Source: Cryomorphaceae bacterium
GTDB lineage: Bacteria > Bacteroidota > Bacteroidia > Flavobacteriales > ECT2AJA-044
Reading direction: 5' to 3'
Length of the DNA: 64,000 nucleotides
Assembly: GCA_017798125.1 (NCBI GenBank)
Contig: CP059070.1
Span: 496,001-560,000, forward strand
Of the stretch, positions 24,353 through 43,812 are shown in pieces (position 1 is the first letter of the stretch; every line of letters begins with the position of its first letter). The notes beneath the pieces are model-generated. The model was not told where the DNA came from. It was given only the letters and a program-made list of their open reading frames with translations, and made no database searches. The translations under genes were made by a program, and so were the position numbers.

Positions 24353-25612
24353 CTACTCTTCTGTTTCGGACTCTTCGGACTTTGTTGTCGGAACAGAGGC
24401 CAATTCCAGAGCTCTTTCAGCTTTTCCGTCTAGGCTTTTCCGAAGGGCATGACCACCTCGAGTCAGGCCGTCAAGATCACCCTCGTCAAAGGCGTCCCAT
24501 AACGCCATTTTAACCACGCCGTCCACAGTAATCAATCCGAAGTGATTCTCGCTTCCACCGGGGTTATCCCCGCCTTTCCAAGGTTCATCAAAAGCCTCGA
24601 AATAGAAGCAGGACATTCCTTGATCCTGAAGCATCGTACGGATCTGATCGTGATAGAGCATTTCCTTGTATTCATCAGCTGCTCCAGATCCTGCACTGTC
24701 GTATAGTTCGTTGTCTGCAGTTGCCCAACCCGTCTCTCCCACATGAATAGGCTTATCCACTTCCAATGATTGCATGTACGCAGAGACGGCCTCGATTTGA
24801 CTCTTAACGCGTTGTACACTTCTATCTATTCCGGCCGCAATCTGTTCCTTTTTCGTCCAGGATTCTTGTTCAACGGGCATCCACCACCAGTCAGGATCGT
24901 AGTGTGTGTCGTGAAAGGGATACGAATGGACACTCAAATAGTCGACCGCCATGATCAATGAATCGAGCGCAGGAAGGTGGTACGATCCATCGCCTCCTCC
25001 CCATGAAGCAAAATTATCCGAGGTAGTGATCCAAAGGTCGGATGGAAGGTCGCCTTTCGCCTTTAACTCCTGAAGCCTTAGAACCTCTTTCAAAATGATT
25101 CTCGGATGTACGTAGTAACCCCAGGCCCAGTGAACCATGGACTCGTTTCCGACAGCAATGATCTTGACAATATCGGGATACTCATTGGCTAGATCTATGG
25201 CTTGAAGGATCTCCGCTTCATTCTCTGTGGCATCGGGCCGATCGTGAATCGGTTCAGAGGTCCAGGCGTTTTCGCACTGCATCCAAGCCCCGAGCATTAC
25301 GTACATCTCGAAATTTGGTTCCTCTTCCTTCATCTCGCGGATGGCTTGGAGTAATCGAGGAGTGTGATCGTACAATCGCGCGTGGTAGGTTCGAAGGATT
25401 CGGATTCCTAGGGCACTTAAAATCTTTAAATCCTCTTTGATCTCCTCTACACTGGGGGCAACCGACCGGTCTTGGTTTCGGTATCCACCATAGGCAATTG
25501 CCGTATAATCAGGGTTTCCGAGGATGTCCTTGGCTGTGGGCTTTGGCATCGTGCCGCAGGCACAAAGTAAACTCAAGCTGAGAACGAAAATCACCTGTAT
25601 CCCTTTCATCAT
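24353..25612 (-). CDS. GH17-like beta-1,3-glucanase lipoprotein
   Basis: A 419-residue surface or periplasmic lipoprotein (lipobox LLCACG, Cys19-Gly20) with a GH17-type TIM barrel. The family acid/base Glu is seen in VGNES (Glu157) and the nucleophile Glu in VGETGW (Glu293); YGGYRNQ and RILRTYHARL near the N-terminus fit GH17. GH17 enzymes cut beta-1,3-glucans such as laminarin. A short Glu/Ser-rich tail ends the protein. It is the last gene of the glucan operon, 4 bases after the GH81 stop. The lipobox is encoded by hairpin element copy 6. Confidence 0.85.
   Translation of the reverse strand: MMKGIQVIFVLSLSLLCACGTMPKPTAKDILGNPDYTAIAYGGYRNQDRSVAPSVEEIKEDLKILSALGIRILRTYHARLYDHTPRLLQAIREMKEEEPNFEMYVMLGAWMQCENAWTSEPIHDRPDATENEAEILQAIDLANEYPDIVKIIAVGNESMVHWAWGYYVHPRIILKEVLRLQELKAKGDLPSDLWITTSDNFASWGGGDGSYHLPALDSLIMAVDYLSVHSYPFHDTHYDPDWWWMPVEQESWTKKEQIAAGIDRSVQRVKSQIEAVSAYMQSLEVDKPIHVGETGWATADNELYDSAGSGAADEYKEMLYHDQIRTMLQDQGMSCFYFEAFDEPWKGGDNPGGSENHFGLITVDGVVKMALWDAFDEGDLDGLTRGGHALRKSLDGKAERALELASVPTTKSEESETEE
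25547..25563 (-). repeat. GATG-tailed hairpin element, copy 6 (GTGCC stem, TGC loop)
   Basis: The minus strand reads GTGCC-TGC-GGCAC-GATG. It lies in the GH17 gene in sense orientation and encodes the lipobox region CACGTM. Confidence 0.75.
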
Positions 25613-25616
25613 TTGA

Positions 25617-28600
25617 TTAGCGCATTATTAGGAGTTTGTGGCTGGTTTGATGGCCTTCCTGATTGACATTCAAGAGGTACATGCCCGCCGGTAAGTGGGT
25701 CAAATTCAGCTCGTACTCGTTGGATTCCAAATCGCCTTGCATAAGCACCTGCCCGGAGAAATTTTGAATACGGAATGCCGCTGGCGCGCTTGACTCACGA
25801 CGAACAGTGAAGTGTCCTGAACTCGGATTGGGATAAACATTAATTGTACCGAAGGGATACTCTTCCAAGGAAATCGCTTCGACGCAGGTTCCAATGACAT
25901 AAGTATCCTTATTGGCGGAGTTATTGCGTTCACCTTCACCCGGATAAGAGTAGGTGTAGTAGAAGTAAATCAATTCGCCTTTACTTGCCGAGATGGTATA
26001 CGGAACATTCGGCGTTACACCGTACCCAGGCATGCCGTTCGGATCGGTCCCGTAATAGAGTATACAGGTAGGGCTACCTACACCGGTCTGACTGGGAATG
26101 AAAGTGAGGGTCGGGTTGTTGTCATCGTCTGAGAACCGCCATTCGAAGTCACCATTGTAACTCACCCCATCGCAGGGAGGCGCTGAATCGATCTGGAGAA
26201 CAACCGGGGCTGACCACGTGGAGTCTCCCAGGTGATCATAGGCCAAGGATCGCCATTCCGTAGAACCAAGACTGGCCGTCCAGCTGGCTTCGTAAGGAAT
26301 CGAGTTCGAGGAACCGTAGAACTGCCCGTTTAAGTAAAAGTCCACATGGCTAATGCTGTCGTTGAGATCACTGGCCGTCGCGGATATCGTTAGATTTTCG
26401 CCCTCTACAAAGGTGTCGCCATTCCCGGGGAACAGAATACTGGTGGTCGGCGGAACGTTGGGGCTGTTCCCGACGACCACGAAGACCTCATCAATATCAG
26501 AATAGGTTCCATTATCCACTTCCAACTTGTACTTGTACACCCCTTCTTGGAGACCACTAATCTGTGGCATTACCCCATTTATTTGGCTCGGGGTAGCCAA
26601 TGTGGGGCCATAGAGTTGCGTCCAAGTATAACTCAAAGCCGCACCTCCTGGATCTGAACTGGCTGTAGCATCCAAAGTGGAAGAGCTGGCGGGAATAACG
26701 ATCACTTGGGTGGACCCAGCGTCGGCAACGGGCTGAGAAAACGGTAGAGAGCCCGTAAGGGTGAATTGTAGCTCACCCAAATTGAATTCGCCGTGCTCGA
26801 TGAATAGGCGAATAATTTGTTTTCCGGATTTCATAGGAACGCTGGTGATCGTCTTCGAGGCCCAGACGTTCCAATCTCCAGTGCCATTAAAGGTGATGTT
26901 GTTCTTCACGACTTGACCGTCGGATTCAATCCGCAAGGGACCTCCGCCCGCATTGTTTCCAGAGGCATAGCGCAAGACCACATCATACATGCCTGCCGTC
27001 TGGACATCGACGGTATATTCGAGCCATTCACCAGCCCCCAGCCATCCAATAACGGGGCCTTCTGAGGGGTGATCTGAGGCATCGACCCATTCGTGTACTC
27101 TGTAGTCGCCTTGATTGACGATGTCTAGGTCTTGATAGGCGATTCCTTGAGCGATTCCGCCTTCGAAGTAATCGTAATCCCCTGCCCAGAAACTGCCCGG
27201 AATGGTGGCAGGAACACCCTGATAGGGGACTTGCTCTCCCACCGTCATGGAGACGATGTTGGACGTCGCACAATTCAAAGAATCGTACATCCGCACATGG
27301 AAGTTGTGGACCCCGGCGGGTAAGTTATTCATGGTAAAATCATGGGGTGGCGCGGTGCTGAAGGCCACGCTATCTTCTCCTTGATAAAGGACAACCATGG
27401 AGGGATTTCCCTGCTGCACCTGAAACTCGAGTTCAGCACTTCCTCCGGTATAGGCTCGATCGAATAGAATGGTGAGGTTTCCTTCCAGTCCCGCATCCAA
27501 GCTGCTCACCAGCTTGCCTGGAGGAACAGTCAACACATAACCATCAGAAAAAGTAACATCAAGTGAAGTTGTCCCGTAATTATGGGCGACGTAGATGGGG
27601 CTTCCACCTCCCTGAAAGGCCACCGCCACAGGGTAATCCGCTTTGATGGTCGTATCCGGGGCACCCAGCACTTTCATGCCGTGCAGCCAGTAGTAGGTCT
27701 GGGCATCAGAAACACCGAATTTCAAGTTCCGATCGGGATAGGAATCGTACAAGCTCAAAGCTTGATCTGGATCCGTGAAGGCCAAGTATTGCCACATGAT
27801 ATCGTGCCACAGATTCACGTTTGGCGCATTGTTGAGAATCCCCGTGTGCTGCTCAATTTCGCTCCAAATTTGGGCGGCATAGGTCAGATTGTGTCCCAAG
27901 TACATGGAACCTCCATGAATCGGGTACAATTCAATTCCGTACGAAGCGGCAATGTCGGAGGTCCAGAAGGTTCCGTTATCATAGCTGTTTCCCCAGACCC
28001 GGGAAACCAGTCCGTATTGCTGACTAGGGCCAAAATTGCGCTGATACATGTCGAACCAATACTCTTCAATGGCAGATTGCTCTGTGGTATACAAGTAGAT
28101 CCCTAGATCGCGAATGGAGTCGTTCCCAGTGACAGAGCCCCAATGAATTAACGAGGAATTAAACTGCATGCTTTCGGATGTCGACTCTTGATCATTACCC
28201 TGAGGGAATGAAGCAAAACCATTGGCCCAACAATGACCGGCATACGGACTAAAATTTCTCAAGTAAGGGAATAGTGGATCTTGGCGATCATCTGTCGCCG
28301 CGTCGCGAACGAGCATGTTGATCATGGAGCCGTAGCCATTGGCCCATCCCGGTTCATATTGCTCCAAAAAGGCGGCTGCGTGTATGAAATAACCCCAATG
28401 AAAATGGTGATCATTAATGTTGTCATCCTGTCCGTGACCCGCTGGGTATCCGATTAAGGCATCCCAATCGTCGTTGTAGTAGAACAAAAAAGCTACCTCA
28501 CCTGAATTGTACTTCAGCCAATCCTCTAAACGCTCCTTAATGGTTGCTACTATGGTGTTCAAAGATGCCGAGTCCCCCATTTCATCCGCAATTCTCGCCG

Positions 28601-29735
28601 TCTGAATAAGCCTATTCATCATTTGGCCTTCGTTGTACGAATCCGTCCAAGTAGCCAATTGATCTCCTTTGATCAGGTCAATCTTCTCTTTGAGCTTGGC
28701 GGGATCATAGGAGAGACTCCGGCAGTTGACATTGGGGAGGGTGGGTAGAATTCCGTAGAAGGTATTTTCTACTGTGAATGAGTTTCCTTCCATCAATTTG
28801 AGATCGCCACGAACCGTCATGTATTCATGACTCGTATTTATGGTACTTCCCGGCGCAAGGTTTGCCCAATGGTGGGGCAAGAGTCCTTGAAGGAAAAGAG
28901 AATCTGTTCCTTCCTTGACCTCTGTTTGAACGTCAAAGGTGGTGGTTACCACTGATGACTGTTCGTCAAAGCTCCAATTCGCACGACACTCGTCCGGAAA
29001 AACAAAGGCATACTGCTTAAAGCTTTGAGCTAAGACCTCTGCGTTCCCTCCAAGGGGTAGAAAAGCAAGGGACCAGTATGTATTGCCGTTCAGTGTGGAA
29101 GTATAGGTGTTTCCATTTTGTGACCAAGTAGAGCCGCTTGGACCGTAAATGGCAAAATCTGCTCCTTGGTTGACTCCTTTTACAATGAGGTAAGAACCTG
29201 AATCAGTAACCGTTCCTTGGTTCACCACAACTTGGGCCAAGCTCATAGCGTCCTTTTCAAAATAAATGAACGGCATTCCTATCCCTGTCTTGGCCTGAAA
29301 ATGATGATTCCCCCCTTGCCAATCCATGGTAAACGTCCAATCGTCAAAGTCAGATACATTAACCGAAGAGGCGTTGAGCCCAACGACACCAACTTCAACA
29401 GGGTCGAAGGCATCAATGGGGCCCCAAGGTACATAAGTAGCAACCAAGCCTTGGTTCTTAGTCTCCATGGTAAATGGATAATTGAAAAGATTCGAGGAGT
29501 GTGCATTTTTAACCTTGTGCGACCACCATTCATTTGTGGGTACCGGCTTATTGGCAGCAGGTCCTGTAACAAATGGAGTCCCCGATGGAAAACTATTCCT
29601 GCCGGCCGCGTCCACTCCTGGAAAAACGGTTGTATACGAACCTTGACCCACCTGAACAACTTGGGCGTGAGAAGCTGCCCAAGAGAGCACGAATAGTCCA
29701 AAAAGTGCAATTTTAGAAAGAAGTGATTTGCTCAT
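25617..29735 (-). CDS. Secreted multi-modular GH81 endo-beta-1,3-glucanase with CBM6 and T9SS domain
   Basis: A 1372-residue extracellular enzyme. The signal peptide is followed by a GH81 domain (about residues 40-735), recognised by NEWWSHK, DHHFHWGYF (candidate general acid Asp442) and FPQGNDQESTSESMQFN (Glu517 and Glu521, candidate base). Then come a CBM6-like module (about residues 850-985, with WLGAGEWLEYTVDV), a PKD-like domain (about 995-1080), an Ig-like linker (NVPPTTSILFPGNGD), an unassigned aromatic module (about 1185-1290) and a C-terminal type IX sorting domain (NVYPNPSSGHF to KLLIMR). GH81 enzymes cleave beta-1,3-glucan chains internally, so this should start extracellular laminarin attack. 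Spacing to its neighbours is 38 and 4 bases. Confidence 0.9.
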   Translation of the reverse strand: MSKSLLSKIALFGLFVLSWAASHAQVVQVGQGSYTTVFPGVDAAGRNSFPSGTPFVTGPAANKPVPTNEWWSHKVKNAHSSNLFNYPFTMETKNQGLVATYVPWGPIDAFDPVEVGVVGLNASSVNVSDFDDWTFTMDWQGGNHHFQAKTGIGMPFIYFEKDAMSLAQVVVNQGTVTDSGSYLIVKGVNQGADFAIYGPSGSTWSQNGNTYTSTLNGNTYWSLAFLPLGGNAEVLAQSFKQYAFVFPDECRANWSFDEQSSVVTTTFDVQTEVKEGTDSLFLQGLLPHHWANLAPGSTINTSHEYMTVRGDLKLMEGNSFTVENTFYGILPTLPNVNCRSLSYDPAKLKEKIDLIKGDQLATWTDSYNEGQMMNRLIQTARIADEMGDSASLNTIVATIKERLEDWLKYNSGEVAFLFYYNDDWDALIGYPAGHGQDDNINDHHFHWGYFIHAAAFLEQYEPGWANGYGSMINMLVRDAATDDRQDPLFPYLRNFSPYAGHCWANGFASFPQGNDQESTSESMQFNSSLIHWGSVTGNDSIRDLGIYLYTTEQSAIEEYWFDMYQRNFGPSQQYGLVSRVWGNSYDNGTFWTSDIAASYGIELYPIHGGSMYLGHNLTYAAQIWSEIEQHTGILNNAPNVNLWHDIMWQYLAFTDPDQALSLYDSYPDRNLKFGVSDAQTYYWLHGMKVLGAPDTTIKADYPVAVAFQGGGSPIYVAHNYGTTSLDVTFSDGYVLTVPPGKLVSSLDAGLEGNLTILFDRAYTGGSAELEFQVQQGNPSMVVLYQGEDSVAFSTAPPHDFTMNNLPAGVHNFHVRMYDSLNCATSNIVSMTVGEQVPYQGVPATIPGSFWAGDYDYFEGGIAQGIAYQDLDIVNQGDYRVHEWVDASDHPSEGPVIGWLGAGEWLEYTVDVQTAGMYDVVLRYASGNNAGGGPLRIESDGQVVKNNITFNGTGDWNVWASKTITSVPMKSGKQIIRLFIEHGEFNLGELQFTLTGSLPFSQPVADAGSTQVIVIPASSSTLDATASSDPGGAALSYTWTQLYGPTLATPSQINGVMPQISGLQEGVYKYKLEVDNGTYSDIDEVFVVVGNSPNVPPTTSILFPGNGDTFVEGENLTISATASDLNDSISHVDFYLNGQFYGSSNSIPYEASWTASLGSTEWRSLAYDHLGDSTWSAPVVLQIDSAPPCDGVSYNGDFEWRFSDDDNNPTLTFIPSQTGVGSPTCILYYGTDPNGMPGYGVTPNVPYTISASKGELIYFYYTYSYPGEGERNNSANKDTYVIGTCVEAISLEEYPFGTINVYPNPSSGHFTVRRESSAPAAFRIQNFSGQVLMQGDLESNEYELNLTHLPAGMYLLNVNQEGHQTSHKLLIMR

Positions 29736-29773
29736 GGTGGTTTTTTGGACTATCAGCGCGGGCTAATGGCCTG

Positions 29774-32700
29774 TTAGAATGAATAGCTAAGCCTTAATTC
29801 CTTGTAGTTGTGTTTTCGACTCCATATGCCTCTACAATGGTCATTGGAAACACGCATTTCCGGCATTACTTTCACTTGATCATCAAGGTCTATGAGCTCC
29901 AGTCGTGCTTGGTCTGCTTTGGAATATCGAATCAAGAGGCCGTTATACGTGTACGCTAACTCACCTGGAGCAAGCTCAACAACCTGTGGTACCCCAAGGT
30001 GATCGTAATATTGAAACTCAACGGGAACTTCCAGTAGCTCCTTCTTATCAAAGAAAAAGGGGTCAAGCACCAGTTCACCATTTTCTACTTGAAGCCCGAG
30101 CTCCGACCAACGATTCAAAATGTCTTCCTTGACCTGACCGGTCATTCCGGGCTGTTTGGCTCCTTGATTCCACGGGGTATGTGAGTATGGGTCAAAGGGG
30201 AATGCACCATAGAGTTGAGGCCCTTTGTTCAATCCTATTCCAGCACGGACGGAATAATAGTGATCAATCAGCTTACCCAGAACCTCGCTATCAGAGTTTT
30301 CTTTATGAGCTAAAACAAGTGTTTCATTCACAGCCAAAAGTAGTTTAGAAACCATGTGCCAGTAAATTGATCCCAATCCTTCATAGGCATAGAACGTTCC
30401 GGACCGTCCTGTGAATGACTGGTGGTCAAAAATCCGTTCAAATTCATCCACTATTTTCGTGCGCTCTTTCTCAGCATCATGTGCAAAAGGGCCGTGTTCC
30501 AAGGATCTAAGCGCTTCCTCCAGGTCGGATGCATTCGATATTTCACTCGCAAAATGAAATACACCATTCCCGTCGCGCTCTACAATCCCGTTTCCTTCTT
30601 CTTCCGCTAGGCTTTTTAGCAGTATAGAGCTTCTCGAGAATTCTTCAGAAATGTTGTTTTTCACTTCGAAGTCAGCAAGCTCGCGATTCGGGTAAAGCAA
30701 ATAACTATACTGGTCCTCACGGAACAAGGCGCTTTTTTCTAGGGCATTGAGCAGATCTAAGCTTTGCTCTGGCTTTAAGTAGCCAGCACTCAAAATGGCA
30801 ACCTGACCTTCCAACATCTCGTAGAGATACCTCAAGTTAATCTGATCCCCTTTCAGCTGCATTAGATTATAGGCATGATACAAACCATCCTCTCGAACAT
30901 TCGAGGCGATGCTAGCATCCAAATAGGCAAGACCTAAGTTCAGAAACCCGAGTACTTCAGCCGATGACACGGATGTCCGTGCACCGAGTTCCGAACCGTA
31001 TGCTTTAATTCGATATCGCTCTCCAGCCTGACCTAATCCATGCACAAACTCATATCTGGTCCGAGGATCAAACCCAATGGTCAAATACGACTTATGCTCT
31101 TCGAGTTGTCCTACAATAGAAGTGAGTAATTCGCGAATAGCCTCGTTTAATTCCAGGTCGACATCCACCCATTTTTCACGCAGGAAATTCAGGTATCGTC
31201 TGAGGTAGTATAGCGTTACCATACTCATTCCATTACCCACCAATGCATTATTCGCATCATTCCATTCAGGACGCTGTGTATTCATCCAGATCCCACCATC
31301 TGGAACTAAGTTGTACATCTTAGTTAAAGCAGTGAGAAGAAGTTTTTCACCAAGTGTGGCCTTGATCAGTTGATTGTCTTTCCAAATCATTCTGGCATCA
31401 CTACCCAAATGCTCCACTTCCGATTTGATGTGGGAATCCAATGTGGCATCGAAATCGATGGTATCCTTAGGGTTCTCCAAAATTGACTGAAACGATCGAA
31501 TGCGATAAGGCACGTTCGCATAGGTGTAGAGTGGTCTATTCCATTCCGAAGAAATCGCCGTGCTCTCATGACGCTCCCAGTGCTCCAATAACTTCTGGAG
31601 GTAGATAATTTGATGATCACCCCAGTACCCGATATACGCCCATGGATCATCTTCTTCTATAATTTCCCAATCTATTCCAGACTTAGAAATGCGATAGGGG
31701 TTGTATCCATCTATGGTTGAAGCGTTCAAAAACTTCGAGATCATCCCTTGGACAAACCTCGGATAGGCATAGGCTAAAGCCTCCCAATTCTGAAAAATAT
31801 CCCGCCAATTCCCCTCGTAAGAGAGGAGGCGTTTTCCATTTTCGCCCCGAGTATGGATATTAAAAATATTCCAGGGTCGACTTGGGTCGCCATGTCTCCG
31901 ACTAAAGGATAACGGCAAATACTCTAAAGTGATTCGCTCTAGTTCTGGATCCTCACAGCGTTTCACCTCACTGAGTAAATCGTCATAATGAATTTCGTCA
32001 GGCCAGGAGCGAAGTAAATCATCCCACTTCATTCCCGTTCGGGTACTTACCTGATTGACATAATGACGGAAATCTTCTCGATCTACTTGGTAGGCTGACT
32101 CGAACAACCCCCCTCGCATGACATTGAACAACACATTTCCGTAATGACGTGTTGTGACCGTTTCAAGTTGCGTACACTGAAGACCATCTCCTTTTGCAAC
32201 TATAGCCCTCAGGCGCTCTTGGTCTAAATCGCGTTCGTTCTGAAGAAGTTCTTGGAGTTCTGCTTCAGTATTACGATTTAATTGGGCCTGCAAATCCATC
32301 ACTTGAGCAGTGGATTGATTCAATTCAGATACCAGGAACCAAGTCTTGGCCTGATGAGCTCCCAAAGAACAATCCGCATGCGCGAAATAGGCTCCCTTAT
32401 AACCATTATTGTGAGACTCCTCTTGAACGTCAAGTCCATTACGGAAAGCGTCAAGCTGATGATTGGAAAGCAGGTAATTCTTTACGCCCAGCCCTACAGA
32501 CCATACAGTATTGGCCACCAATGCTTCACTGGGTTCAGCACGGTCAATAATTCTCGCGCTCAAACTATATACCGCGAGGCCTTTATCCAGCAACTCGCTT
32601 TTTTTATAGGCGTCCACCAAGGTGCTTCTTCCATTCTGTAGAGCGCTGCCTATGCCAGCCGGAAGTATATTCTGGATTCCATCAAGAAGCTCAACGGATC

Positions 32701-33214
32701 TATGATCCTCTCCTAAATTTTCGATCCACGCCTGACGAAGAATTCCGAAGCGATCCGAAAACGACCACTCATAAGCGAATCGAAGCTGAAGATCATGATT
32801 GACTTCTTCAAATCGAAGGCGATTTCCATGTGTATTCTTATACAGATTAGAATCTACCGAGTACATGCCCTTCCCGTACGCTGAAAAAGGCTCCCAAAGA
32901 AGCGTTCGATCATTTTCCTGAACACGAACAATGGTCTTTGATCCAGTATACTCGGCGCCGTCGATTATTTTGTCATCCGTGTAGTAAGGAAAAAGAGAAG
33001 ACTCGGCATTGACCCTTCCTGCAGTTATCCCGCCATTACTCGCCACAAATAGCCAATGGTCTGACGGACTCACCAAAGACATGAAGAATGGCACCATGCC
33101 CTGGTAATTTGAAATTCGGTAAAAGCGATCGCCGTCCAGCGTTAGGAATGACCCTTCTATCGCCTTTGGGCTATTCTTTAAAGCCTGTTTACCTAAGTAA
33201 ATAGCCTGGCTCAT
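29774..33214 (-). CDS. Probable cytoplasmic beta-1,3-oligoglucan phosphorylase (GH149-like)
   Basis: An 1146-residue protein with no signal peptide. Its length, the N-terminal beta-sandwich followed by an (alpha/alpha)6 barrel, and the neighbourhood (GH17, GH30, GH16, sugar transporters) match the GH149 beta-1,3-oligoglucan phosphorylases, relatives of GH94. The segment PEWNDANNALVGNG (Asp653) fits the position of the general-acid Asp in GH94-type enzymes. Such enzymes split beta-1,3-gluco-oligosaccharides with phosphate to give glucose-1-phosphate, saving ATP. GH161 is the main alternative family. Family is inferred from memory of sequence patterns, not a search. It starts 12 bases after the GH30 stop. 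Confidence 0.7.
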   Translation of the reverse strand: MSQAIYLGKQALKNSPKAIEGSFLTLDGDRFYRISNYQGMVPFFMSLVSPSDHWLFVASNGGITAGRVNAESSLFPYYTDDKIIDGAEYTGSKTIVRVQENDRTLLWEPFSAYGKGMYSVDSNLYKNTHGNRLRFEEVNHDLQLRFAYEWSFSDRFGILRQAWIENLGEDHRSVELLDGIQNILPAGIGSALQNGRSTLVDAYKKSELLDKGLAVYSLSARIIDRAEPSEALVANTVWSVGLGVKNYLLSNHQLDAFRNGLDVQEESHNNGYKGAYFAHADCSLGAHQAKTWFLVSELNQSTAQVMDLQAQLNRNTEAELQELLQNERDLDQERLRAIVAKGDGLQCTQLETVTTRHYGNVLFNVMRGGLFESAYQVDREDFRHYVNQVSTRTGMKWDDLLRSWPDEIHYDDLLSEVKRCEDPELERITLEYLPLSFSRRHGDPSRPWNIFNIHTRGENGKRLLSYEGNWRDIFQNWEALAYAYPRFVQGMISKFLNASTIDGYNPYRISKSGIDWEIIEEDDPWAYIGYWGDHQIIYLQKLLEHWERHESTAISSEWNRPLYTYANVPYRIRSFQSILENPKDTIDFDATLDSHIKSEVEHLGSDARMIWKDNQLIKATLGEKLLLTALTKMYNLVPDGGIWMNTQRPEWNDANNALVGNGMSMVTLYYLRRYLNFLREKWVDVDLELNEAIRELLTSIVGQLEEHKSYLTIGFDPRTRYEFVHGLGQAGERYRIKAYGSELGARTSVSSAEVLGFLNLGLAYLDASIASNVREDGLYHAYNLMQLKGDQINLRYLYEMLEGQVAILSAGYLKPEQSLDLLNALEKSALFREDQYSYLLYPNRELADFEVKNNISEEFSRSSILLKSLAEEEGNGIVERDGNGVFHFASEISNASDLEEALRSLEHGPFAHDAEKERTKIVDEFERIFDHQSFTGRSGTFYAYEGLGSIYWHMVSKLLLAVNETLVLAHKENSDSEVLGKLIDHYYSVRAGIGLNKGPQLYGAFPFDPYSHTPWNQGAKQPGMTGQVKEDILNRWSELGLQVENGELVLDPFFFDKKELLEVPVEFQYYDHLGVPQVVELAPGELAYTYNGLLIRYSKADQARLELIDLDDQVKVMPEMRVSNDHCRGIWSRKHNYKELRLSYSF

Positions 33215-33226
33215 ATTTCAGTTGTT

Positions 33227-34702
33227 CTAGTTGACAATTAATGTTTGGATGGAGGCCGGTGGCACCTCTAAAGTCAAGTTCTTATCGTATACATCCACCT
33301 TTAAGGAAGAGCTCTCGACTCCCGTATTAAGGAGAACAACGATAAGGGAGTTATCTGGTCTCTTCACCGTCAAGGCCATCATTTCTTCAGGTAATTCAGA
33401 GTGGCCTACGCGCACCGAACCTCGGGGAATGAAAGTGCTGAAGTGGCGCATCACATCGTACAAGGGGGTGTAGTACAATTCTTGTGTTGTCGTATCAGCG
33501 AGGACAGGTGCCACACACCAATTTTTAACGTGATTTGGACCGCCCTGTGGATCCAACAGCATATTCCAATCAACCCAAGCCTCAACCCATGAATTCATGG
33601 ACCCTATAATGTCACGAGCATATCGGAAAACGGGTACATATTTTGGGTGTAAGTACTTGGATTCTGGCTTCGCCCAATCGTATCCCCAATCGGTGGCCTC
33701 CTTCTTCCAGTACCATGCATCGTCATTCCAATGCGGAACCTCTGCATCTACACAGGCTTCGGTTTGAATAATTCCTTTTTGTGGAGCAAGAGTATGGGTG
33801 TGGTTCAAACTCTTCGGAAACCAATCATATGTAGAAGTATACCAATGAACCGCAGTTCCATAGATGTAGGGCAAAAGTGCAGTATCCGTCAGCAATACTT
33901 CAGCCCATTCCTCCAGCTCTTCGCCCCGGTTTTGATCATAAGTCAAGATGGCCGCATCAATCCCTGCCGAATCGAACTGAGGTCCCATGTGACCTTTGAT
34001 AAACTCAGCCATTTCCTCAGGCGTGTAATGCATACTTTCCCAGTTCGCATCATTCCCCAAGGGCTCATTTTCAACAGTATATCCCCAGATGTCAATTCCT
34101 TCTTCTTGCATAGCCTGGTGGTACTTTACGAAGTACTGTGCCCAAAGTGAATAGAATTCGGGTTTCAACCTACCGCCAAACCAATCTTGATTATCCTTCA
34201 TGAAAGGAGGAGCGGTCCAAGGAGAAGCAATGATTTGAATATCACTTCTTACGCCCTGGGCAGCTTTAATCATGGGAATAATGTCCTCTCGATCGGGCTC
34301 AAGGCTAAAGCTTGACAAGCTCGTGTCTGGGCCTTCTAAATAGTCATAGGACCCGAGCGAAAAATCGCAGGAGTTAATATGAGTGCGAGCCATATTATAC
34401 GCCGCACCAGAATCCGAGAAATAGGCCTGAATAAGCTCTTCTTGCAGACTCGGATTCAATCGCGTCCATAGATGAGCAGAAGACTCTGTAAACGCACCTC
34501 CGAAACCCCTGATCTCCTGATAGCTTGTATCTGGAAAAATAGACCATGAAAGAGCCTCTTCCTGGGATGGTTCTTCCTCAGAAACGAGCGACATTCGCTC
34601 CCCTTCAGCACTACTTCTATACAGCTGATAAGTAAGCCCTTCCTGCTGGCTACAGGAGGCTAAAGACAGCATTAAAATCGCAACGGCGAGTCTTCCCATC
34701 AT
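33227..34702 (-). CDS. GH30-family glucanase lipoprotein (probable beta-1,6-glucanase)
   Basis: A 491-residue lipoprotein (signal peptide with lipobox LASC) carrying a GH30 TIM barrel with its side beta-domain. GFGGAFTESSAHLW, IIASPWTAPPFMK, the acid/base Glu213 in VENEP and the nucleophile Glu315 in IQTEAC are all present. Within GH30 the context suggests an enzyme for beta-1,6-glucose branches of laminarin rather than glucosylceramide or xylan. The ATG at 34702 is chosen because the lipoprotein signal starts there; an upstream in-frame start at 34762 would add 20 non-hydrophobic residues inside the GH16 gene. It begins 2 bases after the GH16 stop. Confidence 0.88.
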   Translation of the reverse strand: MMGRLAVAILMLSLASCSQQEGLTYQLYRSSAEGERMSLVSEEEPSQEEALSWSIFPDTSYQEIRGFGGAFTESSAHLWTRLNPSLQEELIQAYFSDSGAAYNMARTHINSCDFSLGSYDYLEGPDTSLSSFSLEPDREDIIPMIKAAQGVRSDIQIIASPWTAPPFMKDNQDWFGGRLKPEFYSLWAQYFVKYHQAMQEEGIDIWGYTVENEPLGNDANWESMHYTPEEMAEFIKGHMGPQFDSAGIDAAILTYDQNRGEELEEWAEVLLTDTALLPYIYGTAVHWYTSTYDWFPKSLNHTHTLAPQKGIIQTEACVDAEVPHWNDDAWYWKKEATDWGYDWAKPESKYLHPKYVPVFRYARDIIGSMNSWVEAWVDWNMLLDPQGGPNHVKNWCVAPVLADTTTQELYYTPLYDVMRHFSTFIPRGSVRVGHSELPEEMMALTVKRPDNSLIVVLLNTGVESSSLKVDVYDKNLTLEVPPASIQTLIVN

Positions 34703-34704
34703 AA

Positions 34705-35922
34705 TCAATTCACTTTTTGATATACCCGTACATAGTCGAGAATGTACTGATGAGATTTCCAAGAAGTATCAATTCCTTGAGCCCCTCCCCAGCCTCCGCC
34801 TACGGCGAGATTCACGATGATGTTTTGAGGTTTATCGAATGGCCATTCCAATTCATTGGCATTCTTGTCATAGGTGAAGTAATACTCCCCGTCCAAGTAG
34901 GCGTCAATCCGATCCGGATGCCATTCAATGGTATAGTTGTGGAACTGCTGATACATGCTGTCCACCTCAATTTCTGACCCTATTTGATTCCCTTGTTTGA
35001 AATAGTAAGCTCGAGTATGACAGGTCGCATGGTTCAATCCAGTTCCCGTGGTATCATTAATTTCGTAACCAACGCACTCCAATACGTCAATCTCCCCGCA
35101 ATAAGGCCAGGAAATTTCGTCTCGATAGGCTTCTCCTAAAAGCCAACCTGCCGCCCAGGTTCCGCGACCAGGTGGCACTTTCGCTCTAAATTCCACTTTC
35201 CCATACTGGAAGGCATGTCTTCCTTGAGTTGTTAAACGAGCAGAAGTCCAAGCGGGCCCTATTTCGTTTTGGTGTGCCTCGATAATCAAGGTTCCATTTT
35301 CTTGACGTGCGTTTTCGATTTGACCGTCCGTGTAGTACTGAGGTTCGTTGTTACCCCAACCCCAGTTTCCAATATTGTAAGACCACTTGGTAGAATCAGG
35401 TAATCCCGTTCCGTCAAACTCATCACTCCAAACCAGCTCCCACTCATCACCTTCCATGTTCTGGACATGGACATTCGGGCTCGCCACTCGTTCTTGAATC
35501 AATTCAAATCCAAGGGATTTTAACTCGACTGCTCCTCCATCCACATGTAAGCGCATTGGATGAAGGCCAGTATCCAAGGGGCTACCGTCTATCGAAGCCA
35601 AATCCTTCCAACCATGCGGCGTAACACTACCCGTGATATTGTAGGTTCGGCCATCGGTGTTGTCCATGTAATCCTCCAGCCAAATAGTCGAACTATCTGT
35701 TCCGGAGGCATCAAACGTTACCCGGTAACGGCCACAAGTAGGTACCGTGACTTCAAGGTCAAGGTGCCCACCAGCTTGTAGTTTTACGGGGGCTTCACCT
35801 TCGCCAAGCAACACAACCCAAGAATTACCTTCATCATCTACTACTCTTGTCGACTCTTGGGTCGAAGGGTTTTGGCATGCGGCAAAAAGAACCAATAGCG
35901 CGGGGATGATTACTCTTTTCAT
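34705..35922 (-). CDS. GH16 laminarinase-like lipoprotein
   Basis: A 405-residue lipoprotein (lipobox LFAAC). An N-terminal beta-sandwich (about residues 30-140) looks like a carbohydrate-binding module, and the C-terminal half is a GH16 jelly roll. The catalytic motif GEIDVLE is intact with Glu277 as nucleophile, Asp279 and Glu282 as acid/base. WSYNIGNWGWGNNEPQYYTD is typical of bacterial laminarinases in GH16 subfamily 3. It should release oligosaccharides from beta-1,3-glucan at the cell surface. It is 2 bases from both neighbours and clearly operonic. Confidence 0.92.
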   Translation of the reverse strand: MKRVIIPALLVLFAACQNPSTQESTRVVDDEGNSWVVLLGEGEAPVKLQAGGHLDLEVTVPTCGRYRVTFDASGTDSSTIWLEDYMDNTDGRTYNITGSVTPHGWKDLASIDGSPLDTGLHPMRLHVDGGAVELKSLGFELIQERVASPNVHVQNMEGDEWELVWSDEFDGTGLPDSTKWSYNIGNWGWGNNEPQYYTDGQIENARQENGTLIIEAHQNEIGPAWTSARLTTQGRHAFQYGKVEFRAKVPPGRGTWAAGWLLGEAYRDEISWPYCGEIDVLECVGYEINDTTGTGLNHATCHTRAYYFKQGNQIGSEIEVDSMYQQFHNYTIEWHPDRIDAYLDGEYYFTYDKNANELEWPFDKPQNIIVNLAVGGGWGGAQGIDTSWKSHQYILDYVRVYQKVN

Positions 35923-35924
35923 GC

Positions 35925-37478
35925 TTAGGCTTTTACTAGTTTTTTCTCCAATTCTTCTAAAGAGACTCCCTTGGTTTCTGGAATCACTCTAATAATAAAG
36001 ATCAAGCCCGCTAAAGCGAATAGACCATATATTAAGAAGGTCAAGGAGCTCCCTAATACTTCGAGCTCCCACGGGAAGACCCATTGTACAATAAAGCTAA
36101 CAGCGGAATTAATCAACCCGACAAATGAAATGGCAATACCCCGGATCTTATTCGGAAAGAGCTCAGAGAAAAGCACCCACATGACGGGCCCAATAGAAAT
36201 GGCAAACGAGGCGACAAAGGCCAAGATCGCACCCAAAATGAGCACTGTATTCAAATTGATACTGGCCGTTAACAGCGATTGCTTTTGCTCTACGTAAAAC
36301 TCTGAACCTCCCTCCAGGCCTTCGACGGCACTCTGAAAGCCCGCCTCCGAATTATAGACCTCTCCTTCTATTTGACTCAACGCCGGAATCGCATTTTCAA
36401 AGGAAGCGATATCCGTTGCATCCAGGCTATAAGTTGCGGCGTTAAAGCCATAGGCCAAAGTGAACATGGACAAGACTATTCCTGTCACACCAAAAATCAA
36501 AAGAGGTTTTCGACCAAGGCGATCAATGAACAGTATGGCCAGAATAGTGAATAACAGATTGACGAGGCCAACTAAAATAGCCTGCATGAACGAGGCGTCC
36601 GTTCCCAGTCCGCTTTGCTCGAAAATCATGGGTGCGTAGAAGAAAACCGAATTGATCCCCGTAATCTGCTGAAGAACGGCAACTACGATTCCAATGGTAA
36701 TAACGAGACGCATAGCCGGCTTAAATAAATCTTTGAAACTACCCTCTGATTGATCTTCATCCTGAGAGATGGCCTGGGTAATTCGATCGATTTCCTTTCG
36801 CGCTTTTTCAGGTCCGTTAAAACGTGCCAGAACTGCTTCTGCCTCACTTATGTTTTCATGCATGAGACACCAGCGTGGACTGCGCGGCACAAAGAACAGT
36901 CCCAAATAATACAGCACAGCAGGGATAGTCTCAAGGCCCAACATCCATCTCCATTGATTCTGATCAATGCCCAAAGTCTTCACCCAGGAGTAATCCGTTT
37001 GCGCGTATTGAAGAATGGCGTAATTGGTAAAGAATGCCAAGGAAATACCGATCACAATATTGAGCTGATTGAAGGAGACCAATCTCCCTCTTAATTCTTT
37101 AGGCGAAATCTCGGCGATATACATAGGTGCCAAAATGAGAGAAGCACCCACTCCGAATCCCCCAATCATTCTAGCAATGACCAAAAGGACAAAATTCGGA
37201 GCCAAAGCAGAGCCAATGGCGGAAATAGCATATAAGATAGCTGCCCAGCGTAACACGGCTCGTCGCCCAAACTTATCACTGATAGGCCCGGCAATCATCA
37301 TGGCCAGAGTGGACGTCAAGGTCAAACAGGCTACAGACCAGCCCAGCTCAAGTTTCGTCAGTTCAAACTCTGGTTCAATGAACTTTACTACGCCGGATAT
37401 GACCGATGCGTCAAACCCCATGAGTAACCCACCAAGGGCTACGATCAGGGCAATTTGCATAATACCTCTATTCTTCAT
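35925..37478 (-). CDS. MFS sugar transporter (sugar porter family)
   Basis: A 517-residue inner membrane carrier with 12 predicted helices. Sugar-porter signatures are present: DKFGRR after TM2, VPRSPRW at the end of the first half, RLGRKPLL in the second half and VIPETKGVSLEELE at the C-terminus. A large loop of about 60 residues (about residues 330-395) separates two helices. In this operon it most likely brings glucose or short beta-glucan oligosaccharides into the cytoplasm; the substrate is inferred from context only. It overlaps neither neighbour (2 and 9 bases apart). Confidence 0.9.
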   Translation of the reverse strand: MKNRGIMQIALIVALGGLLMGFDASVISGVVKFIEPEFELTKLELGWSVACLTLTSTLAMMIAGPISDKFGRRAVLRWAAILYAISAIGSALAPNFVLLVIARMIGGFGVGASLILAPMYIAEISPKELRGRLVSFNQLNIVIGISLAFFTNYAILQYAQTDYSWVKTLGIDQNQWRWMLGLETIPAVLYYLGLFFVPRSPRWCLMHENISEAEAVLARFNGPEKARKEIDRITQAISQDEDQSEGSFKDLFKPAMRLVITIGIVVAVLQQITGINSVFFYAPMIFEQSGLGTDASFMQAILVGLVNLLFTILAILFIDRLGRKPLLIFGVTGIVLSMFTLAYGFNAATYSLDATDIASFENAIPALSQIEGEVYNSEAGFQSAVEGLEGGSEFYVEQKQSLLTASINLNTVLILGAILAFVASFAISIGPVMWVLFSELFPNKIRGIAISFVGLINSAVSFIVQWVFPWELEVLGSSLTFLIYGLFALAGLIFIIRVIPETKGVSLEELEKKLVKA

Positions 37479-37487
37479 AGTTGCAGA

Positions 37488-39110
37488 TTAGGAGAAGTAC
37501 CACCATAGTCCAAAGACCAGGAATACGACTATAATTGTGTGTAAAATGTGGGCTAATGGGGCCTTTTGAGACCCATCCGAATCAATAGGACCAATAGCGT
37601 CTTCTTGTGGAGATGTCCTGTAACTCACGAGTACAAGTACAGCACTTGATATCAAGAAAAGCAGCAGGGCAAAATGCAAGAAGTTGATCTCTGTAAACCA
37701 AAGCAGAATGCCAGACCAATTTTCCTTGCTCAGTTCCAAAACAAGCCTCAATGCACCGAGGATCGCTCCAGTGAGAAGGGCGTATTTTGCTCCCGTTGCA
37801 TTGAGTCTATTCCAAAAAATGCCCAAAAGGAAAACCGAAGCAATCGGCGGAGAGATGTAGGACTGTAAGCTTTGGAGCTTTTGGAATAGGCCTCCCTCTA
37901 AAAGTTGTAAAACGGGAATCCAGGCGATTCCCAAAACCACCAACCCCGCAGTTGACCATCGGCCTACGGCTACCAAGCGCCGCTCAGATGCTTCAGGAAA
38001 TCTTCTCTGATAAACATCCATGGTGATTAAGGTTGAACACGAATTGAAAACAGAACTCAAGGAACTCATAAGCGCCGCCAGCAAACCAGCGACAACAAGC
38101 CCTCTAAGGCCGGTTGGCAATAACTGCTTGGTGACGAGCGGAAGAGCCGCATCATACACGGGTTCTCCATTTTCAAGTGGGAATTGAATCACCGCATCAG
38201 GCCCTATAGACAATTTATAGGCAATAACCCCTGGTACAACGAATAAGAATAACGGAAGCACCTTGAGATAGGCTGCGAAAATGCTACCCTTACGGGCATG
38301 ATCTAAATTTCGAGCAGCAAGTACCCGCTGCACAATGAACTGGTCCGTACACCAATACCAAATTCCTAAAATCGGGGCTCCGAAGAGAATTCCTGTCCAG
38401 GGGAAATCTGGATGGTCCATGGATCGCCATAGGTCCAAATAGCCTGGCTCTGCAGTAGCCACCAAGTTGGACCACCCACCTAGCTTATCCAAACCGATAA
38501 AAGTGATGGCGATGGAACTACCCAAGAGAATAAACATCTGAACCATGTCCGTGTAGACTACGGCCTTCAGACCTCCAAAAAGAGTGTAGATCCCCGTTGC
38601 AACGACAACGATAATGGCTCCGAACCAGAAGTCAATGTTCAGCAAGGCCTTGAAAATGATACCACCCGCCATGATGGTCAACGCAATCTTCGTCAACACA
38701 TATCCGATAATGGAAATCCAAGTGAGGTAGGAGCGCGCCCAAGAGTTGTAGCGCTTCTCCAAGAATTGAGGCATGGTGAAAATGCCCGTGCGTAAGTAAA
38801 TAGGTACAAATACCCAAGCCAACAACAAGAGCATGAATGAGGCCAGTAATTCAAACTGTGCCACGGGAAAATCACCTGCAGCACCGGCGCCCGCCAGTCC
38901 GACTAAGTGTTCCGATCCAATATTAGAGGCAAAAAGCGAAGCGCCAATGATGAACCAAGACAGGTCTCGACCCCCTAAAAAGTATGCGCTACTGTCAGAG
39001 TCCAAACCCTTCTTGCGATCCTTCAGATACAAGAAGATGAATATCCCGAAGATCAACAGGAAATAAGCGGCTAGAACCGAATAGTCGTATGCATTGAATT
39101 CGCCGCCCAT
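37488..39110 (-). CDS. Sodium:solute symporter (SSS/SGLT family)
   Basis: A 540-residue inner membrane symporter with about 14 hydrophobic segments. DLSWFIIGASLFASNIGSEH in TM1 and the region GLRGLVVAGLLAALMSSLSSVFNS, with the Ser-rich sodium-site helix, are typical of SGLT-like sugar transporters. As part of the glucan operon it is probably a second route for glucose or oligosaccharides driven by the sodium gradient, which suits a marine organism. It lies 9 bases after the regulator gene and 9 bases before the MFS gene. Confidence 0.9.
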   Translation of the reverse strand: MGGEFNAYDYSVLAAYFLLIFGIFIFLYLKDRKKGLDSDSSAYFLGGRDLSWFIIGASLFASNIGSEHLVGLAGAGAAGDFPVAQFELLASFMLLLLAWVFVPIYLRTGIFTMPQFLEKRYNSWARSYLTWISIIGYVLTKIALTIMAGGIIFKALLNIDFWFGAIIVVVATGIYTLFGGLKAVVYTDMVQMFILLGSSIAITFIGLDKLGGWSNLVATAEPGYLDLWRSMDHPDFPWTGILFGAPILGIWYWCTDQFIVQRVLAARNLDHARKGSIFAAYLKVLPLFLFVVPGVIAYKLSIGPDAVIQFPLENGEPVYDAALPLVTKQLLPTGLRGLVVAGLLAALMSSLSSVFNSCSTLITMDVYQRRFPEASERRLVAVGRWSTAGLVVLGIAWIPVLQLLEGGLFQKLQSLQSYISPPIASVFLLGIFWNRLNATGAKYALLTGAILGALRLVLELSKENWSGILLWFTEINFLHFALLLFLISSAVLVLVSYRTSPQEDAIGPIDSDGSQKAPLAHILHTIIVVFLVFGLWWYFS

Positions 39111-39119
39111 AGAATAGAA

Positions 39120-39857
39120 TTACAGCTCGAAGGAAAAGCCCTTGGAGATTAGCTCGTCGTAACGCTCTTGGTCAAATCGATAGAGTTTACCCGGACGGTG
39201 AGACACGTTCTGCTCCCGCTCTCCGGTTTCTATTAAAAGCCCCATGGATAAGATCTTCTTGCGGAAATTGGCTTTATCAAAGGTCTTATCCAATAGGGCC
39301 TCATAAAGGCGTTGCAGCGCCCCCAGCGGAAAAGTAGCTGGCAATAATTCAAACCCTACGGGTTGATGACGGACCGTCGCACGTAGTGTCTCCAAAGTTT
39401 TAACGATGATCTCTCCGTGATCGAATGCAAGTTCTGGTAAATCCGAAACGGCGTGCCAATGAGCGTTCTTGGCCCATGAAGAACTTTGAGGGTTATAGTG
39501 ACCTATATTAACTAACGCGTAATATGCAACCGTGATGACGCGACCGAGCGGATGACGCCCCACACTGCCGAAGGTGTGTGCCTGCTCCATGTATAAATTG
39601 TTGATTCCGGTTAGATCATTGAGGACTCGAGAAGCCCCATCAGTCAAATCTTCCTTTGGATAGACTAGGTCACCCGGTAGTGCCCAGGCATCCTTAAAAG
39701 GCTCGGCATCCCGTTGCACCAATAGAACCTTCAGGTCATCCTCGTCAAATCCAAAAACGGTACAGTCCACAGAAAATGCCGCCTTGAAGAAATCTTCTAA
39801 AGCAATGGGATAAATATCGTATTCGGCTCTAATGCTCTCGTGGGCCTGAGGGTCCAT
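39120..39857 (-). CDS. Nudix-type transcriptional regulator (NrtR/AraR-like)
   Basis: A 245-residue protein with an N-terminal Nudix domain (about residues 28-160) and a C-terminal winged helix (about 175-240), the layout of NrtR and of the Bacteroides arabinose regulator AraR. The Nudix box is degenerate: where the catalytic pattern is REXXEEXG, this protein has SRVLNDLTG, so it is unlikely to hydrolyse nucleotides and probably senses a sugar ligand. As first gene of the eight-gene glucan operon it is the obvious local regulator. It contains a hairpin element (copy 7). Confidence 0.85.
   Translation of the reverse strand: MDPQAHESIRAEYDIYPIALEDFFKAAFSVDCTVFGFDEDDLKVLLVQRDAEPFKDAWALPGDLVYPKEDLTDGASRVLNDLTGINNLYMEQAHTFGSVGRHPLGRVITVAYYALVNIGHYNPQSSSWAKNAHWHAVSDLPELAFDHGEIIVKTLETLRATVRHQPVGFELLPATFPLGALQRLYEALLDKTFDKANFRKKILSMGLLIETGEREQNVSHRPGKLYRFDQERYDELISKGFSFEL
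39352..39368 (+). repeat. GATG-tailed hairpin element, copy 7 (AACCC stem)
   Basis: AACCC-TAC-GGGTT-GATG: the stem differs from the GGCCC copies at two positions and both partners change to match. It is antisense within the Nudix regulator gene. Confidence 0.65.
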
Positions 39858-40032
39858 ACACTAAATATTAATTGTACTTTATACGCTTATCAGCGCTATT
39901 TCCGTAAGTTTTATGAACTGAGGATTAAAAAAATGTTGTCGAAATGTAGGAACTTTTGGTGAATAATACCATAAGTTTTTATAATTTCACCGTCGTCAAC
40001 CTAAACTGTAATCAATTGAAAATCCAATAACT
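39858..40032. promoter_or_regulatory. Divergent AT-rich control region of the glucan operon and the 40033 gene
   Basis: This 175-base region must hold the promoters of both divergent units. No exact TAnnTTTG is seen on either strand; TAATTTCA near 39982 is a weak candidate for the plus gene. Two similar direct repeats, TAAGTTTTAT (39905-39914) and TAAGTTTTTAT (39972-39982), are 67 bases apart and may be regulator sites. Confidence 0.4.
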
Positions 40033-43000: not shown

Positions 43001-43812
43001 CAAATGGACCTATCGAGTGGAAGTACAGTATCGACAACTGGGCGTTTGACGAAAGCTTGAACTCGGGTATGTCTTGTGTTATTACGGATCCAAGCGGACA
43101 GTTTGTTAACCGATACTTGGATGTCCAAAACGACACGGTAATGCCAGTCGTTTGCTACGAAAGCTGCATGGCTTGTCCAGCAAACCCGATCAATGTGAAC
43201 ATTACCTTCCAAGTTGATATGTCCGGATATACTGGTGGAGCGTACACTACGGTTCACGTGAACGGTACGTTCAACGGATGGTGCGGAAGTTGTGGTAATG
43301 AAATGCAAGATCCAGATGGAGATAACATCTACGATTTGACCGTTCCATTCAACAACATTACCCCAGGCGATACCATCGAATGGAAGTATACCGTAGACGC
43401 TTGGACAGATCAAGAAAACTTGACGGACGGATCACCATGTACCTTGACTACCATTGATGGCACCAACGTCTTTGTAAACCGTATGTTGGCTATGCCAGCT
43501 ATGGATCAGACAATGCCAGTGGTATGCTGGAATAGTTGTGATGCTTGTACCATTGGATTGGAAGAAGAGGCCGGAGCCTTTGATATGTTCCCGAATCCTG
43601 CTCAAGATCAAGTAACCATTACTTGGGCGCAGTCTGGTGAGCGTACGATTCGCATCGTAGATGCTCAAGGTCGCGTAGTTCAAACCGTTCAACCAGAACT
43701 TAATGCTCTGGAAGTGGTCTTGAATACAAGCAGTCTCTCAGCCGGTTGGTACACCGTAGTTGTTGAATCAGCTTCAGACTACAAAGTTGAAAAACTTATC
43801 ATTCAGGAGTAA
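40033..43812 (+). CDS. Large secreted modular protein with glycogen-binding-like modules and T9SS domain
   Basis: A 1259-residue extracellular protein with a signal peptide (cleavage near residue 18). In order: two modules starting VTFKVDM with the FNSW/FSGW and GxIEWKY/MEYKF patterns of CBM48/AMPK-type starch-binding folds (about residues 22-240); a beta-sandwich resembling carbohydrate-binding domains of marine laminarin proteins (about 250-420); a lamin-tail (LTD) domain starting CGDLIISEYIEGSGSNKALELYNP (about 425-595); two near-identical 170-residue MAM/jelly-roll-like repeats (about 603-935); two more VTFKVDM-type modules (about 940-1170); and a type IX sorting domain (MFPNPAQDQVTITW onward). 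No catalytic domain is recognised. It is divergent from the glucan operon, so it may bind glucan or surfaces. Confidence 0.8.
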   Translation: MKRVLLFLLFVPMLLTAQTNHNVTFKVDMSDYTGTFTNVYVSGTFNSWGGTSNQLLDADGDSIYEAVVSVPAGPIEWKYQVDAWAGQENFLSGTPCTVTNGGFTNRSMDVNADVVLPAVCWESCNSCGYVAPIVNVTFKVDMNQYTGTYTNVHVNGPFSGWCGSCAGTQMSDPDGDGIYELVAPLPAGSMEYKFTIDGWADQEQFNGGESCTVTNSGFTNRNIIYFADTVLDVACFNSCAACAAGPVLTQVDLPITFDDSTVNYTVLPFGGSSTASVVMDPAGGSNMVMTMNKTADAPTWAGTTMSTAAGLANPVPFSASANEMTVMVYSPDSGIVVRLKAEDAADPAISVETDAMTTTSNAWEMLTFDFANQATGTAAIDYNNTYDKLSIFFNFGVDGATAGDKTYYCDNVMMASGSGTNPNACGDLIISEYIEGSGSNKALELYNPTPNAIDLSLYSVYCNVNSGSFNNLSSPQGMIAPYGTYVMVNSNADSTLAAMADTLLSGFSAVNFNGDDAILLVKGSDTLDIIGEVDIDPGSSWPVGSGSTQNHTLVRMATVDMGETDWVVGATQWDVYPTDTYTDLGTHTSNCANTGNPCVVSMLPYSEDFEAGFPACWDTTQNAGSNGFMWGDATAMGSQFWPVPAHTNFMASNDDACDCDMSNDLLRSPQFDLSGYAGQLLDLSFEYYGDQNYGSIGTVWYSMNGGPLMLLDSMAPSPAAAWAMSTLDVSAVAGSDSVVFVWKHDDQGAWADGVAIDDVSVSVAPDPCMVMTLPYTEDFETGGMPACWDTTHNAGSNGFMWGDDTMHASQFWPVPAHTNFMASNDDACDCDMSNDLLWTPPFDLSGYAGQSLNLSFEYYGDQNYGSVATVWYSMNGGPLMLLDSVPPSPATAWANRTLDVSAVAGSDSVGFVFKHDDGGAWADGVAIDDVMLDVADTDSDVTFKVDMNNYGAAFGYVNVSGNFNNWCGDCAQMDDSDGDGVWELTIADIPNGPIEWKYSIDNWAFDESLNSGMSCVITDPSGQFVNRYLDVQNDTVMPVVCYESCMACPANPINVNITFQVDMSGYTGGAYTTVHVNGTFNGWCGSCGNEMQDPDGDNIYDLTVPFNNITPGDTIEWKYTVDAWTDQENLTDGSPCTLTTIDGTNVFVNRMLAMPAMDQTMPVVCWNSCDACTIGLEEEAGAFDMFPNPAQDQVTITWAQSGERTIRIVDAQGRVVQTVQPELNALEVVLNTSSLSAGWYTVVVESASDYKVEKLIIQE
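41839..42840 (+). repeat. Tandem 510-base in-frame repeat
   Basis: Two consecutive copies with a 510-base period (170 residues; second copy from 42349) encode LPYxEDFE...CWDTTxNAGSNGFMWGD and a nearly identical stretch from NFMASNDDACDCDMSNDLL onward. Many synonymous differences show that it is an old duplication kept by selection on the protein. Confidence 0.8.

Follow-up and report, generated by a model that had tools for sequence, protein, structure and literature searches.

A laminarin utilization locus probably split into two pieces under one NrtR-type regulator in a Cryomorphaceae bacterium

We propose that the genes for laminarin use in a Cryomorphaceae bacterium very probably constitute one locus that is split into two co-controlled pieces, 36 kb apart, which would obey a single NrtR-type switch through near-identical operators. 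The first piece is an eight-gene operon at C1:520353-535857; it lies in the window, by which we mean the whole stretch of 64,000 nucleotides that was analysed (C1:496001-560000 of a single-contig genome of 2.84 Mb). The second piece is a laminarin-type block with SusC and SusD genes, located outside the window. A previous sequence-only reading had described the operon as lacking SusC/SusD. This description holds for the operon and what directly surrounds it; the genome as a whole, however, contains the unlinked block.

Gene content of the operon

The eight consecutive minus-strand genes that had been described, with gaps of 2 to 38 bases, were all recovered as ORFs at the positions given. The intergenic gaps along the operon are 9, 9, 2, 2, 12, 38 and 4 bases; the 2-base gap between the GH16 and GH30 genes presumes a Met start at 34702 for the GH30 lipoprotein, which was assumed because the TTG-started ORF overlaps the GH16 gene. 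The features, in window coordinates, are as follows.

40033..43812, plus strand: divergent T9SS-secreted protein with CBM48/AMPK1_CBM-like, LTD and choice-of-anchor J domains (CBM_48 53.7, AMPK1_CBM 55.4, LTD 49.1, Por_Secre_tail 52.0 bits)
39952..39976, minus strand: candidate operator ACTTATGGTATTATTCACCAAAAGT, 94 bp before the regulator gene, beside a TAcaTTTc -7-like box
39120..39857, minus strand: NrtR/AraR-type regulator, the operon's first gene (NrtR_WHD 89.1 bits, AraR_C 54.7, NUDIX 36.9)
37488..39110, minus strand: SSS (SGLT-like) symporter (SSF 284.6 bits; SGLT1 7sl8, E 1.8e-110)
35925..37478, minus strand: MFS sugar porter, XylE/GLUT-like (Sugar_tr 362.5 bits; XylE 4qiq, E 5.9e-78)
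34705..35922, minus strand: GH16 lipoprotein, predicted periplasmic (PF00722 80.4 bits; acidic residues at +2..+5 past the lipobox Cys, 0)
33227..34762, minus strand: GH30 lipoprotein, likely ATG start 34702 (PF02055 232.3 bits; GH30C 43.3)
29774..33214, minus strand: GH149 beta-1,3-glucan phosphorylase, predicted cytoplasmic (NF058639 1533.2 bits, cut-off 1150)
25617..29735, minus strand: GH81 beta-1,3-glucanase with CBM6 and T9SS sorting tail, predicted secreted (Glyco_hydro81C 160.5, CBM_6 49.9, Por_Secre_tail 52.6 bits)
24353..25612, minus strand: GH17 laminarinase-like lipoprotein (6fcg GH17, E 3.9e-145, residues 24-413)

Pfam cut-offs were cleared by the regulator (NrtR_WHD/AraR_C and NUDIX), by both predicted inner-membrane carriers (SSF and Sugar_tr MFS) and by the GH16, GH30 and GH81 proteins (the last with GH81C, CBM6 and T9SS tail). 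The GH17 protein scored under the Pfam GH17 cut-off (24.8 versus 28.2) yet matched the solved structure 6fcg over its full length, and the GH30 protein fell short of the cut-off of the BT3312 endo-1,6-beta-glucanase equivalog (210.9 versus 700). A consensus promoter and terminator scan gave no excess over shuffles.

The unit probably exceeds eight genes. The divergent gene at 40033-43812 adjoins the same operator region as the operon, and its homologs point away from the NrtR gene in G001, G032, G058, G066, G104, G163, G311, G089, G282, G041 and G237, which points to a probable member of the regulon. Its position across the operator is conserved in every operon-bearing relative with a readable flank.

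For the protein at 29774, the sequence-only reading had proposed a GH149-like phosphorylase and had named assignment to a non-phosphorylase family as the outcome that would count against the proposal; the HMM search assigned it to GH149, with the NCBIfam equivalog model cleared over residues 17-1142. The protein matches the solved PDB entry 6hq6. In the reference enzyme Pro_7066 a WND catalytic loop and an RD motif have been described (PMC6771811), and the corresponding W651 N652 D653 and R471 D472 are invariant among eight aligned GH149 proteins. By family model and motif, this protein is a GH149 beta-1,3-glucan phosphorylase with the catalytic WND intact.

The earlier view of a beta-1,3/1,6-glucan operon is supported. 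The T9SS-secreted GH81 with its CBM6 inside the operon could be taken to favour insoluble or cell-wall beta-1,3-glucans (callose, curdlan-like or fungal/algal wall) over soluble laminarin as the main substrate. We consider this improbable, as the content of marine laminarin loci is GH16, GH30, GH17, GH149, PKD protein and SusC/D (PMC6298971, PMC6246565) and the GH81 gene is missing from the operon of G001, which is contiguous in that assembly.

The distant SusC/SusD block and its synteny in relatives

The sequence-only reading had suggested a search for SusC/D elsewhere in the genome. This search detected two SusD genes and two SusC genes, both of the latter clearing the curated cut-off, with one pair in a laminarin-type block:

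C1:572241-581196: GH16 (weak T9SS tail), SusC (833 bits), SusD, PKD + CBM4_9 lipoprotein, GH16 lipoprotein

The block begins 36 kb past the operon, and its susC gene is at C1:574035. Its SusD is 45-50% identical to the SusD of GH149-bearing laminarin-type loci; this identity and the neighbouring genes suggest that the pair is specific for laminarin. The other SusC/D pair, at C1:1272.7-1277.2 kb beside a GH65 gene, was rejected as the laminarin pair: it belongs to a maltose-type locus with an NrtR paralog of its own and a different palindrome. That maltose-type locus, L012:5945-12572 (G000:C1:1271945-1278572), also carries a beta-phosphoglucomutase-like gene. In G001 the maltose-type susC is present as two overlapping ORFs (L114:13080-16105, G001:C33), due to a frameshift or an assembly error.

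A susC-susD tandem beside the operon's glycoside hydrolases is absent here but is found in five relatives (G032, G058, G066, G104 and G282), where GH16, PKD, SusD and SusC genes come immediately after the operon and convergent to it. The orthologs in these five have identities of 68-71% for SusC and 67-72% for SusD. Since the block orthologs abut the operon there, the two loci of the present genome correspond to a single locus in close relatives. In G311 the contig ends after the first two block genes, which adjoin the operon; in G089 the block lies on a separate contig, together with a GH17 gene and an additional copy of the regulator gene. This second laminarin-type NrtR gene of G089 and the GH17 gene directly adjoin the SusC/D block (L113:6430-9027). 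No SusC ortholog was detected in three operon-bearing genomes, G001 (same genus), G041 and G237, and therefore the operon can exist without this SusC; for G001, the contig loses synteny before the position of the block and an assembly gap is possible. A survey of 47 public GH149 loci for SusC/D within +/-10 kb (both genes in 8, neither in 36) was dropped as a frequency estimate because the pairs of G004 and G038 sit beyond 10 kb.

These observations bear on whether the operon may be a self-sufficient system free of SusC/SusD, with the distant block unrelated and either a general porin or the 21185 TonB receptor admitting the oligosaccharides. The operon does lack SusC/D genes, this receptor is 0.9 kb from the operon end, and a 73% identical receptor is found near the operon in G001, where the laminarin SusC ortholog is undetected. 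However, the receptor scores 115 bits against a SusC cut-off of 368, no operator was found near it, and in both G000 and G001 it sits after a dprA-like gene. On the score and the lack of a nearby operator, we rejected it as the missing importer, in agreement with the sequence-only reading, which had thought it probably unrelated. The idea of a system that runs without SusC/SusD, also raised there, is not supported, given that a block at a distance of 36 kb has the operon's operator before its susC and has orthologs right beside the operon in five relatives; we regard it as highly improbable.

Operator and regulator

A palindromic operator is present, at the level of sequence, at both promoters that we suppose to be controlled. 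The 25-bp pattern has two zero-mismatch copies in 2.84 Mb, one at the operon and one at susC (C1:573918-573942); the respective start codons, of the operon's first gene and of susC, are 94 and 92 bp away. The pattern was built from both of these sites, so the lack of mismatches is by construction, and the weight of the finding rests on the spacing, on the lack of a third exact copy and on the identity of 26 of 27 bases between the operon promoter AACTTATGGTATTATTCACCAAAAGTT and the susC promoter AACTTATGGTATAATTCACCAAAAGTT. Within the window, 0.05 copies with at most three mismatches would be expected. A copy with two mismatches ends just ahead of the point at which the signal peptide of the outer GH16 is predicted to begin.

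In relatives, a related palindrome, (G/T)CTTTTGGT-N7-ACCAAAAG, occurs ~92-105 bp upstream of susC, and the gap that separates the regulator gene from its divergent neighbour holds diverged copies of the palindrome. A weight matrix trained solely on the relatives' susC sites ranked both sites of the present genome high (20.0 and 18.6); two further sites in the sequence scanned had equal or higher scores (23.7 and 20.0), in stretches that had been chosen for carrying pattern hits. These two are at 2394420 and 2503602, and neither has an obvious glucan gene downstream. The first (L111:9420, G000:C1:2394420) is a 2-mismatch copy ~70-90 bp before a PorP/SprF-like gene, which precedes an ORF of >3000 aa, and may be due to chance. 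The second (L108:9602, G000:C1:2503602) is a strong palindromic copy in a convergent intergenic region of ~460 bp, where a later TATATTTG box and a terminator-like end resemble a small RNA gene; an Rfam search of this region gave no match.

The maltose locus has a differing palindrome, AAGTGTATTAAATACACTT or a close form of it, before its own NrtR gene and before its own susC, and this is probably the operator of the NrtR paralog encoded there. Because this locus has another palindrome, the laminarin operator is not a generic promoter element.

The closest solved structure to the regulator is BtAraR (5bs6, E 1.7e-50). The REUxEE part of its Nudix box reads RVLNDL, with all three glutamates replaced. 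By homology the regulator is an AraR-like protein of the NrtR family with a dead Nudix box. In AraR and NrtR an impaired Nudix domain serves for ligand binding, and the Bacteroides AraR, of the same family, has been predicted to control distant susCD operons too (PMC4666351), which is a direct precedent. Repression would be the simpler reading of the regulator's sign because the operator directly adjoins, or overlaps, the likely promoter. Among the papers covered by a text search, none contains both 'NrtR' and 'laminarin'.

A proposed route for laminarin

The N termini of the lipoproteins suggest where the enzymes act. In Bacteroidota, the signal for export of lipoproteins to the surface has as its core a polar or positive residue followed by two acidic ones (PMC5080379). 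In all relatives examined, 2-4 acidic residues stand just past the lipobox Cys of the block's GH16 and PKD lipoproteins, and SusD has 1-2. The mean number of acidic residues at +2..+5 is 2.5-2.9 for the block GH16 and PKD proteins, 0.4 for the operon GH16 and GH17 proteins and 1.1, a mixed signal, for GH30. This pattern suggests that the block GH16 is on the surface and that the operon GH16 and GH17 are in the periplasm.

The closest solved relatives of the two carriers, XylE/GLUT for the MFS porter and SGLT for the SSS symporter, move monosaccharides, so that oligosaccharide transport by either is putative. It is also possible, therefore, that the main route is hydrolysis to glucose, with release in the periplasm, import of glucose by both carriers and a minor role for GH149, or one in recycling leftovers; in Formosa B, glucose is released by a GH17 (PMC6246565). 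Against this, GH149 has no signal peptide and is present in every operon of the type that was read, such that some oligosaccharide must enter the cytoplasm; the only GH3 gene of the genome lies far from the operon; and the MFS porter is retained even in operons without the SSS gene. Hence, we judge this route to be rather unlikely as the main one, though less so than a cell-wall substrate. Every operon of this type that was read beyond its first genes retains the MFS gene, while the SSS gene is gone in G058, G066, G104 and G311. On this pattern, the MFS porter is the likelier partner carrier of GH149.

For the split locus that we favour, we would anticipate the following sequence of events. 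The secreted GH81-CBM6 and surface GH16 enzymes would cleave the polymer, and the oligosaccharides would pass from SusD and the PKD/CBM protein to SusC for import. The periplasmic GH30, GH16 and GH17 lipoproteins would then remove branches and shorten chains, and the MFS porter (plus the SSS symporter where present) would carry short laminari-oligosaccharides and/or glucose into the cytoplasm. There, GH149 would convert the beta-1,3 chain to glucose-1-phosphate, and a phosphoglucomutase, a family of which the genome encodes members, would form glucose-6-phosphate. A sugar bound in the dead Nudix domain of the regulator may free it from the operators. Gene content, family assignments, motifs, operators and synteny are read from the sequence; the protein locations, the substrates of the carriers, the sign of the regulator and its effector are inferred.

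Relation to known systems

Laminarin PULs of variant B from marine Flavobacteriia (Kappelmann 2019, PMC6298971; Formosa, Unfried 2018, PMC6246565) have in common with the present system GH16, GH30, GH17, an MFS carrier, a PKD protein and SusC/D, and a GH149 has been reported in Formosa. The full set of GH16, GH30, GH17, MFS carrier and PKD protein is present here, with the PKD gene and two of the three GH16 genes in the distant block. In contrast to variant B, the genes form two loci 36 kb apart, the operon includes GH81-CBM6, and there are an SSS symporter and an NrtR-type regulator. At the level of the locus, the operon is an exact match to the 'CAZyme clusters lacking susCD-like gene pairs' of Kuhaudomlarp 2018 (PMC5827456), in which GH149 occurs with GH30, GH17 and GH16, but here a susCD pair was located elsewhere and linked by operator and synteny.

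Kalenborn 2024 (PMC11345257) described dispersed laminarin genes in Maribacter, in which laminarinase, SusC/D and inner-membrane uptake are likewise not co-located. The Maribacter genes are fully scattered, with GH3 and an ABC system and with no GH17/GH30 genes, and the passages considered describe no shared operator, whereas we observe two compact blocks with a common operator. The Bacteroides AraR regulon (Chang 2015, PMC4666351) likewise has an NrtR-family regulator with an impaired Nudix box, a semipalindromic site and control of its own operon and, as predicted, of distant susCD operons; the sugar is arabinose there and beta-glucan here, and the regulon is different.

Dispersed laminarin genes, susCD-less GH149 clusters and NrtR-type control of a distant susCD have thus each been published separately. 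New are the evidence for a distant susCD behind the same operator as a GH149 cluster and a candidate NrtR-type regulator for laminarin. For these marine bacteria, no earlier candidate for the regulator of laminarin use, or for its operator, emerged from the text search. Automatic PUL finders seek adjacent SusC/D and would rate the operon as incomplete, while operator and synteny say otherwise; the same reasoning could rescue further 'CAZyme clusters without susCD'.

A two-barrel cassette in sister lineages

Tracking of the operon across relatives revealed a candidate uptake cassette that is unnamed in the family libraries used. In G041, G237 and G242 the cassette is inside the operon and comprises two signal-peptide proteins (~650 and ~570 aa), predicted to be barrels, and lipoproteins, one of them CBM30/CBM9-like. 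No laminarin-type SusC was detected in the sister genera with this cassette. The cassette loci are as follows.

L088:6146-12876 (G237)
L024:17623 to L019:4371 (G041)
L203-L213
L194:1-2514

Most members of both large families are without a Pfam match, and a few have weak OMP_b-brl matches. Profile searches of both barrels against PDB found no relative (best E 0.31), and a fold prediction for one barrel homolog, made without an alignment, had a mean pLDDT of 29. Homologs of the ~570-aa barrel were found in 55 of 396 Flavobacteriales genomes, and SusD was undetected in 12 of the 24 checked genomes that have this barrel. In the eleven loci read, the larger barrel is followed by the smaller and then by a lipoprotein; a CBM30-like protein is also encoded there, and GH2-like, GH16 or GH3 genes are frequent.

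We tentatively suggest, while rating the odds as below even, that the outer-membrane module of the NrtR-controlled beta-glucan operon is interchangeable, being an unlinked SusC/SusD in the present genome and two predicted non-TonB barrels with lipoproteins in G041, G237 and G242. The latter might let glucan oligosaccharides in independently of SusC/SusD, and this putative system could serve as a lead for SusC/D-free uptake. In L212 (G120:C9:1-14000) the cassette is divergent to SusC and SusD genes whose products are 64% and 68% identical to those of the laminarin block, and both modules are found side by side.
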